From contig NZ_WVIC01000032.1 of assembly GCF_009939295.1 (NCBI RefSeq), forward strand, positions 1 to 49,700: 49,700 bases of DNA, written 5' to 3'. Under the pieces are notes generated by a model. The model was not told the origin of the DNA, did not search any database, and saw only the letters and a program-made list of their open reading frames with translations. Position numbers and translations under genes: made by a program. Shown one piece after another: positions 26,900-29,848 of this stretch (the stretch's first letter is position 1; each line of letters opens with the position of its first letter). The DNA comes from Petrachloros mirabilis ULC683 (GTDB taxonomy: Bacteria > Cyanobacteriota > Cyanobacteriia > Thermosynechococcales > Thermosynechococcaceae).

Positions 26900-27583
26900 A
26901 TGGCTTACGTTTGTGAATTTGGCTCAGGGCAAAGAGTCTACCTCGACAATCAGGGTACTCAAACCCTGGTGACGACCTATAGCGGCAGCCCCGGCCAGCA
27001 ACAGCAGTCCAGCAGCGGCTTTCAGACCGGAGCCTGGACAGCCCCACCGGAAGCCTATCACTCGTCCCAAGGGCTAACACTCAAGGTGAATACGAGCCAG
27101 GGTGCGCACTATATCCAGGTGCAAGGAGGCAGTATGCAGGTCGTCAGTAGTCAGGCTACGGGTGGCGCCCAGCAGATGCAAATGCATACCGCAGCCATGC
27201 CAACCTCCCCCACCATGCAGCCGATGCAGCCGATGCAACCGATGTCCTTTTCCAATCCCTCGTCAGAAACCCCTGCCCCCAAACCGTCTGGTTCCGAACC
27301 GATGCAACCGATGCAATCCATGCAGCCGATGCAGCCCATGGAACCGATGCAGCCGATGCGAATGGGCAACATGGAGATGAATCTCAACAATCCGATGGAA
27401 ATGCGGATGGGGAATATGCACATGCGCATGGGTGACTCCCCCCAAATGAACCAGCCCCCTCAGTCGCCCCCATCTCAGTCAGCCCAAGCTGCTCAAGCTA
27501 ACCGGCGCTTTTGCAGCCAGTGTGGTGCCGCAGTGGAACCAACCGATCGCTTCTGTGCGAGTTGTGGCCATCAGCTCCATTAG
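26900..27583 (+). CDS. Methionine-rich protein with C-terminal zinc ribbon
   Basis: 227 residues. Residues 1-85 form a beta-rich domain (MAYVCEFGSGQRVYLDNQGT then QTLVTTYSGSPGQQQQSS) that I believe is conserved in cyanobacteria. Residues about 88-180 are low complexity, with about 24 methionines in about 95 residues, mostly as MQP, MEP, RMGNM and MHMRM motifs. The end (residues 202-227) is a zinc ribbon with C205, C208, C219 and C222 (FCSQCG and FCASCG). No signal peptide, so it is probably cytoplasmic. Metal binding, possibly copper through the methionines, is inference. It converges on a small gene of the ilvB unit, 12 bp away. Confidence 0.75.
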   Translation: MAYVCEFGSGQRVYLDNQGTQTLVTTYSGSPGQQQQSSSGFQTGAWTAPPEAYHSSQGLTLKVNTSQGAHYIQVQGGSMQVVSSQATGGAQQMQMHTAAMPTSPTMQPMQPMQPMSFSNPSSETPAPKPSGSEPMQPMQSMQPMQPMEPMQPMRMGNMEMNLNNPMEMRMGNMHMRMGDSPQMNQPPQSPPSQSAQAAQANRRFCSQCGAAVEPTDRFCASCGHQLH

Positions 27584-28042: not shown

Positions 28043-29848
28043 CTAGAGCTTGGTTCCACATTCGGGGCAGAAATTATGGCTGGCGATGGTTTTAGCGCCG
28101 CAGTTGCTGCAATAAATGAGCTCAGCAGCTCGCTCTAGCTTTTCTTGCTCAGCCAAGCCCAACATCTGGGCATTACTCTTGCCTGGTGCCACCATGGGAT
28201 AGCAGTTTTCGTTGCGAGTCACATGGGCGTCCACAAGTACCGGGCCATCGTGGGCTAGCATTTCGGCAATCACTCCAGGCAGGTCGGTGCGATCGCGCAC
28301 CATCATGCCTTTGACGCCAAACGCCTCCGCCAGCTTCACAAAGTTAGGCATCCCCACTTCCATATTGGAGTGAGAATAGCGCTCACCATAGAATGCCTCC
28401 TGCCATTGGCGCACCATCCCCTGCCAGAAATTATTGATAATCACCGTTTTGAGATTGATCCCATACTGAGCCAGGGTTGCCAACTCTTGCAGGTTCATTT
28501 GGAAACTGGCATCCCCGCTGATACAAATCACGGGCTTTTCCCCAACGGCCACCTTTGCCCCCATGGCCGCGGGCAAGCCAAACCCCATGGTGCCCAATCC
28601 GGCACTAGAAATCCAGCGACGAGGCCCATTTTTGAGAAATTGAGCTGACCACATCTGGTGTTGACCCACATCGGTGGCGTAGTAGGCATCCGGGGCTTGC
28701 TTGCCGATCTCCACAATTACCTCTTGGGGCGATAGCTGTCCCATAGGGCAGGGTACCGTCAAGGGATAGTCTTGTCGCCAGCGCTGAATTCGGGTCAGCC
28801 ATTCTTGGGTGCAACTGGGGGTAGCTCCTGCTGCTCGGGCCAATGCCAGCAACTCAAGCAGCACGGGTCTGACGCTACCCACGATGGGCACCTCAGGGGC
28901 GCGATTTTTACCCACTTCAGCCGGATCAATATCAATGTGAATGACCTTGGCTCGGGATGCAAATTCATCTAGCTTACCCGTGACCCGGTCATCAAAGCGC
29001 GCACCCACCGCAATTAACAAATCGCACTCACTCACGGCAAAATTGGCGTAAGCCGTACCGTGCATACCTAGCATCCCCAGAGCCAGGGGATGATATTCAT
29101 CAAAAGCCCCTTTGCCCATTAAGGTCGTGGTGACTGGAATCTCGAACCACTCAGCCAATACCTTTAATTCTTCATGGGCTCCTGCTGTGACGGCACCACC
29201 GCCCACGTACAGCAACGGAGACTGGGCAGCTTGAATCAAGGAAAGCGCCTGCTGAATTTGGCGGGGGTTTCCCTTGACTGTGGGTTTGTAGCCTAGCAGG
29301 CGAATGTCCCCTGGTTCAACAGGGCTGTAGTCAAATTCTTCTAGCCCTACATCCTTGGGCACGTCAATCAGCACCGGGCCAGGCCGACCCGTACTGGCAA
29401 TGTAGAAGGCTTCGGCCACAGTTCGAGCCATGTCTTGGGGGCTGCGCACGACGTAAGAGTGCTTGACAATCGGCAGGGTAATGCCAAAAATGTCAGTTTC
29501 TTGAAAGGCGTCACTGCCAATGGCCGCTCGGGATACCTGCCCTGTAATCACCACCATGGGGATAGAGTCCATGTGGGCGGTAGCAATCCCTGTGACCAGA
29601 TTGGTGGCTCCAGGGCCGGAGGTGCCAAAGCAAACGCCCACCTCACCGGTGGCTCGGGCATAGCCATCGGCAGCATGAGCGGCTCCTTGTTCGTGGCGTA
29701 CCAGAATATGCTGGATCCCGCCTTGGGCTTCAGCTCGATACAGTTCATCATAAATTGGCAGAATTGCCCCACCTGGGTAGCCGAAAAGATGCTTGACCCC
29801 ATGGCGTTTCAAGCTATCAATTAAGGCAAAAGCTCCGGTTGCACGCAC
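28043..29848 (-). CDS. ilvB: Acetolactate synthase large subunit with C-terminal zinc ribbon
   Basis: 601 residues. Catalyses the first step of valine/leucine/isoleucine synthesis (acetolactate from pyruvate) with ThDP, FAD and Mg2+. Seen: catalytic Glu53 in [14 protein letters not shown], the ThDP loop GDASF at 445-449 (GDGSF in most homologues), [11 protein letters not shown], and Trp482 in MVRQWQE of the herbicide-binding site. The last 25 residues hold a treble-clef-like zinc ribbon, CSNCG (C580, C583) and CPECG (C594, C597), which is absent from E. coli and plant enzymes. A small gene follows by 3 bp. Confidence 0.95.

Follow-up and report, generated by a model that had tools for sequence, protein, structure and literature searches.

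MetZR, a methionine-rich zinc-ribbon protein of cyanobacteria associated with Anbu and amidoligase genes

In the 49,700-nucleotide stretch of Petrachloros mirabilis ULC683 DNA that was analysed (contig NZ_WVIC01000032.1, positions 1 to 49,700; hereafter the window), the forward strand carries an open reading frame for a methionine-rich protein, for which we coin the label MetZR. The protein opens with an all-beta N-terminal domain (N-domain), continues with an (M-x-P)n tract of variable length and a conserved Met core, and ends in a zinc ribbon; a DNA search finds one copy of it in this genome. Its features are as follows:

26900..27583, + strand: MetZR open reading frame, 227 aa including the stop
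26900..27190, + strand: N-terminal all-beta domain, residues 1-97; predicted by AlphaFold2 with a mean pLDDT of 88.3 and a pTM of 0.77 when folded alone
26993..27004, + strand: GQQQ motif, residues 32-35; present in 74/74 rows of alignment A3 and in 30/31 proteins of the whole-protein-search set (both defined below)
27215..27244, + strand: M-Q-P repeat tract 1, residues 106-115; a period-9 repeat in Tandem Repeats Finder, ATGCAGCCG, 3.3 copies
27296..27358, + strand: M-x-P repeat tract 2, residues 133-153; a period-9 tandem repeat (Tandem Repeats Finder array at 27297-27359, AACCGATGC, 7 copies)
27356..27433, + strand: conserved Met core, residues 153-178, evident from column conservation; two MxMG[N/D]MxM units at 27356 and 27401
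27509..27577, + strand: C-terminal zinc ribbon, residues 204-226; Pfam Zn_Ribbon_1 (PF13240), E 2e-7

The original prediction had described about 24 methionines in about 95 residues; the count is exactly 24 in the 96 residues 88-183 (27160-27450), the next most frequent residues being Pro (17) and Gln (12), and at a 2% Met background the binomial P is ~1e-19. Each of the motifs that it had listed (MQP, MEP, MRMGN and MHMRM) is present in the translation, and its view that the stretch is encoded by repeats agrees with the period-9 arrays in the DNA. The zinc ribbon, which it had also named, scores 31 bits in Pfam, where the cut-off is 25, and contains two CxxC knuckles. Family searches gave no match between MetZR and an enzyme family. 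A zinc-ribbon-like C-terminal tail (YCSNCG...FCPECG) is also seen in a neighbouring ORF on the minus strand (28043-29848), which we take to be acetolactate-synthase-like, such a tail being unusual for that enzyme.

The N-terminal domain is conserved, as had been proposed, and it stands outside the Pfam families: in the window protein it matches none at E <= 0.1, and across the N-domains of 67 members any one family was matched in at most two (best E 0.008). A Foldseek search with the N-domain model returned no match at E <= 0.001. Middling structural similarity was seen to paired beta-propeller blades, including those of the two-blade lectins RSL and BambL (two four-stranded blades), with which the domain aligns over 78-79 residues at a VIA Z of 6.3-7.1 and an rmsd of 3.0-3.1, values that lie within the background range. 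In the predicted model the Met core is of low confidence, with a pLDDT of about 50-59. From the alternation of residues alone, we infer that its MxMG[N/D]MxM units would form beta hairpins, and we word this conditionally because the structure model is unsure in that region.

MetZR is conserved in cyanobacteria and almost confined to them. A whole-protein search of 292 genomes of the phylum identified homologues in 32, in keeping with its earlier description as an uncharacterised conserved protein with a zinc ribbon. The N-domain by itself, used as query, matched 34 genomes; two of the matches, in G291 (E 0.002) and G177 (E 0.008), are antisense to a longer ORF at sites with no N-domain-like ORF and were therefore rejected as chance, which leaves the same 32 carriers. 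Within this sample the N-domain never occurs apart from the rest of the protein. The whole-protein-search set used for residue counts comprises 31 of the 32 carriers (30 loci plus G070, with G135 left out). A GTDB search gave 125 relatives; we retained 80 of them with flanks of up to 6 kb on either side, which make 81 loci together with the window. Alignment A3 contains 74 rows, namely the window and 73 of the 80 loci after L079 and L128 (truncated or split) and five near-copies had been dropped; alignment A4 contains 67. Because the GTDB loci were picked with Met-rich peptide patterns, Met counts in A3 are inflated, and the whole-protein-search set is therefore given alongside.

Several individual occurrences of the gene were also recorded. 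Genome G308, of the same family as the window's genome, has three MetZR loci with six matches on contigs C83, C88 and C160, and in genus g2 MetZR was found in none of about 12 genomes listed. Two plasmid copies are present in Acaryochloris sp. Moss Beach (L067 on pMB05 and L068 on pMB07), both of which follow a gene for nearly the same hypothetical protein (about 171-178 aa). The copy at L105 (JAAUUT010000003.1), labelled Candidatus Gracilibacteria, groups with Hydrococcus on the MetZR tree, and the taxon label is probably a binning error.

Judged from the alignments, the methionine content of MetZR is under selection. Between the N-domain and the ribbon, all 31 carriers examined (of 32) have 7-25 Met, and the weakest of them, L013, has kept its PM repeats and lost the Met core; orthologues lacking the repeats altogether, which the original prediction had regarded as a sign of neutral expansion, were not seen when the comparison was run. 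In 11 core columns of the whole-protein-search set, Met fills 296 of the 325 non-gap cells, with L/I/F in 23 and other residues in 6, while in the hydrophobic N-domain columns of the same 31 proteins V, I and L interchange; this difference leaves room for a thioether-dependent metal or redox role. The core columns of A3 hold 734 Met in 784 cells, at loci chosen by their Met patterns. The exact Met-core pattern was matched 35 times in 20 of the 292 genomes, always within MetZR-family genes, and a control pattern gave 0 matches. In bacterial amyloid signalling the same motif recurs in a partner receptor or effector; an exact shared motif of that kind was considered and rejected, since none of the 35 core matches falls in a partner gene.

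The repeat tract varies in length, from 2 to 13 (M-x-P)n units with a median of 6 among 74 relatives, and its middle residue is restricted. In A3, Q, E or K occupies x in 391 of 474 units; the whole-protein-search set gives 129 of 157, with E:D at 26:0 and K:R at 17:1, and the corresponding ratios for the N-domain (A3) are 218:114 and 88:170. As D and R lie one base from E and K codons, mutation alone would fail to explain the restriction. The share of Q among A3 units is 65/165 at loci linked to transglutaminase-like (TG) genes, 8/51 at ATP-grasp-linked loci and 104/258 at unlinked loci, raw counts that establish no tie between repeat type and enzyme class.

The recurrent context of MetZR is an Anbu/amidoligase gene set rather than copper or oxidative-stress genes. 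MetZR lies within 6 kb of genes for circularly permuted ATP-grasp (CP-ATP-grasp), Alpha-E, TG/DUF2126 or Anbu proteins at 35 of the 81 loci and is unlinked at the other 46; among the 45 loci with full 6-kb flanks, 22 are linked and 23 unlinked. In the phylum sample, 10 of the 32 carriers have MetZR within 6 kb of an Alpha-E, DUF2126 or PF00227 gene (the three surveyed there), and the two counts overlap in that some organisms, e.g. L102/G060, are in both. With overlapping ORFs excluded, the commonest neighbour clusters are transglutaminase-like (24 loci), CP-ATP-grasp (16) and Alpha-E (12), and Pfam matches on the neighbours checked were CP_ATPgrasp_2, Alpha-E, Bact_transglu_N with Transglut_core, and DUF2126. 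Further clusters, in 11 and 7 loci, are presumably WD40/TPR repeat and AcsF-like proteins, respectively; the AcsF-like gene lies 160-1179 bp upstream at L089, L096, L123, L129, L143, L145 and L147, in two lineages and in differing orientations. The linked loci show three arrangements: TG/DUF2126 downstream (19), ATP-grasp divergent (12) and ATP-grasp co-directional downstream (4). On the MetZR tree, which is built from few columns and leaves many forks open, the starred branches force at least five changes between the linked and unlinked states.

All five genes stand together at L137, where TG, Alpha-E and ATP-grasp share one strand and divergent MetZR is followed 9 bp downstream by Anbu. The latter was identified by phmmer against solved Anbu chains (best E 1.7e-81); an NCBIfam look-up for Anbu gave archaeal proteasome matches below cut-off only. 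Genes matching PF00227 adjoin MetZR in five genomes (G070, G172, G058, G083 and G060), with the ORFs inspected at G172, G058, G070 and L102. This PF00227 survey is soft both ways: the model is weak and cannot tell Anbu from HslV, and the fragmentary match in G127 and the sub-cut-off match in G133 were counted. In the window's genome, MetZR (contig C49) is unlinked to the partner genes, which comprise an ATP-grasp/Alpha-E/TG operon on C19, DUF2126 on C14 and PF00227 on C34 and C48.

Co-occurrence was assessed across 139 genomes of the class by Fisher tests that ignore relatedness. Alpha-E is present in 31 of the 32 MetZR carriers and 44 of the 107 non-carriers (P 2.5e-9), PF00227, with its weak model, in 25/32 and 14/107 (P 8e-12), and DUF2126 in 7/32 and 3/107 (P 1.4e-3); among Alpha-E genomes alone, the DUF2126 association has a P of 0.05. 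The sole carrier without Alpha-E (G131) lacks CP-ATP-grasp as well. Five families (f6, f11, f14, f15 and f23) contain carriers alongside genomes that lack the two genes; in these, 15 genomes have both genes, 11 neither, 5 Alpha-E only and 0 MetZR only. Family f19, with Alpha-E in 28 of its 35 genomes, has no MetZR. With 44 genomes containing Alpha-E and no MetZR, MetZR is optional.

We consider MetZR very probably an accessory member of a cyanobacterial Anbu/amidoligase system, which would comprise a circularly permuted ATP-grasp, Alpha-E, the proteasome relative Anbu and a transglutaminase-like protein that occurs by itself or in fusion with the putative amidoligase DUF2126, or else gives way to the latter. 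The computational basis of this reading is the linkage, the co-occurrence, the domain layout, the retention of Met and the restriction of x mostly to Gln/Glu/Lys. Its role within the system is a more tentative matter: that of a substrate or scaffold is conceivable and open to real doubt, and the explanation as a whole, an accessory acting as substrate or scaffold, comes close to an even call. Transglutaminase and amidoligase chemistry acts on Gln, Glu and Lys side chains. The N-domain and zinc ribbon would anchor MetZR in the system, the repeats may offer evenly spaced Gln/Glu/Lys side chains to be transamidated, deamidated or joined by amide ligation, the Met core could serve as a docking or self-assembly element, and Anbu would trim or degrade bound or modified material. 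The accessible text of PMC6265872 gives GQQQLG as a known TG2 donor peptide, and the fit of the GQQQ motif and the M-x-P residues to TG/amidoligase chemistry is suggestive only. Two points run counter to the substrate reading, namely that the window protein has zero Lys in its M-x-P units and that a polyproline-type helix could equally favour Gln/Glu/Lys. Against the explanation as a whole stand the unlinked copies, that of the window's genome among them, the exception G131 and the optional nature of MetZR. In Yersinia, moreover, the Anbu operon proteins gave neither a specific complex nor peptidase activity (PMC6376114), and the 2017 structure paper considers peptide synthesis a less probable role for Anbu than degradation (PMC5666114).

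A bolder version would make MetZR the dedicated substrate or carrier of a proteasome-linked protein modification, with a Pup-like logic put together from unrelated parts around an ancestral proteasome subunit. The TG-like and DUF2126/ATP-grasp enzymes would then deamidate or ligate the repeats, Anbu would process the product, and the Met core could make MetZR redox-responsive. We regard this as unlikely.

Other explanations share part of this evidence. MetZR might be an adaptor, itself unmodified, whose flexible Met-rich region would recognise segments that are unfolded, oxidised or of membrane type and deliver them to the ligases or Anbu. Met-rich parts of SRP54 and ubiquilin, which bind such segments, provide the model. 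Linkage and co-occurrence are identical under the adaptor and substrate readings, and a repeat number that varies between 2 and 13 suits a flexible arm; however, the core is more than simply greasy, its sequence being fixed down to the G-[N/D] turns and the Arg, and the restriction of x to Gln/Glu/Lys is left unexplained. We rate an adaptor as somewhat unlikely. The retention of Met itself, and not of any hydrophobic residue, also fits a switch in which reversible Met oxidation would alter MetZR assembly and tune the linked enzymes, by analogy with the Met-redox assembly proposed for Met-rich prion-like domains of the ataxin-2 type. At the Verrucomicrobiota-labelled locus L121 (5962-9131), a diverged MetZR lies beside RES-domain, Ferric_reduct, Oxidored_molyb and AhpC/TSA genes, and the Oxidored_molyb and Ferric_reduct neighbours are presumably MsrP/MsrQ-like, which speaks for such a switch. 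A motif scan of the 81 loci, however, gave just L121 and one MsrB-like ORF 4.5 kb away, and we hold the switch to be quite unlikely.

The metal or redox protein envisaged by the original prediction is upheld in part: Met is kept as Met (296/325), but the neighbourhoods of the 81 loci do not point to copper or oxidative stress. Binding or storage of Cu(I)/Ag(I), with MxxM and MxM coordinating the soft metals, would agree with the conservation of Met and with the very high density of both motifs. The ORFs flanking the 81 loci contain no P-type ATPase motif (DKTGT), however, the Pfam matches up to E 1 include no DUF305, and the N-terminus is polar and, by eye, shows no obvious signal for export, unlike that of the exported CopM; a role of this kind appears very unlikely. 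If the protein had an unrelated function and its repeats had expanded neutrally, M-x-P tracts of 2-13 units and a DNA repeat that is near-perfect in places would be accounted for. Such an expansion is extremely improbable, because the N-domain search finds the same 32 genomes and the Met-rich middle is kept in all 31 carriers examined, with a non-repetitive core in most; for the Met core itself, conservation rules it out.

The literature covered, some of it as excerpts and with Iyer et al. 2009 outside its scope, yielded no Met-rich cyanobacterial zinc-ribbon protein and no such Anbu partner. CopM of Synechocystis, as far as the accessible text describes it, combines a pair of DUF305 domains with a signal peptide and is encoded in a copMRS operon (PMC4335983). 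Being a Met-rich cyanobacterial protein is the trait that it has in common with MetZR, which shows no DUF305 match (Pfam to E 1), no evident export signal by eye and no copMRS operon; with the gene context described here, a Met-rich family is shifted from the default copper-binding guess. MetZR resembles the Met-rich domains of ataxin-2/Pbp1 in being Met-dense and of low complexity, and a comparable assembly may be possible, the likeness being one of analogy and not of homology. A further analogy may be drawn with Pup/PafA/Dop, as MetZR too bears Gln/Glu, would be flexible and has a putative amidoligase and a relative of the proteasome as neighbours. Pup has a C-terminal GGQ/GGE, whereas MetZR ends in a zinc ribbon without such a tail. 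In one arrangement (the 19 loci with TG/DUF2126 downstream), the DUF2126 putative amidoligase fused to transglutaminase is the direct downstream neighbour of MetZR; MetZR itself is a non-enzyme by any family match.

The Anbu operon itself is described, in the accessible portion of PMC6376114, as four genes encoding ATP-grasp, Alpha-E, transglutaminase-like and Anbu proteins, and the same text offers tagging, peptide-synthesis and degradation hypotheses for its role, none of them confirmed. Finding the substrates and interactors of Anbu is named a key task in the excerpted part of PMC5666114, and a small conserved protein with repeated Gln/Glu/Lys beside Anbu or the ligases bears on the substrate question. 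MetZR, a gene beyond the described four and absent in many Alpha-E genomes, is both linked to and co-occurring with the genes of this operon, and it provides a concrete candidate, testable by mass spectrometry, for the substrate or adaptor that the Anbu system still lacks.
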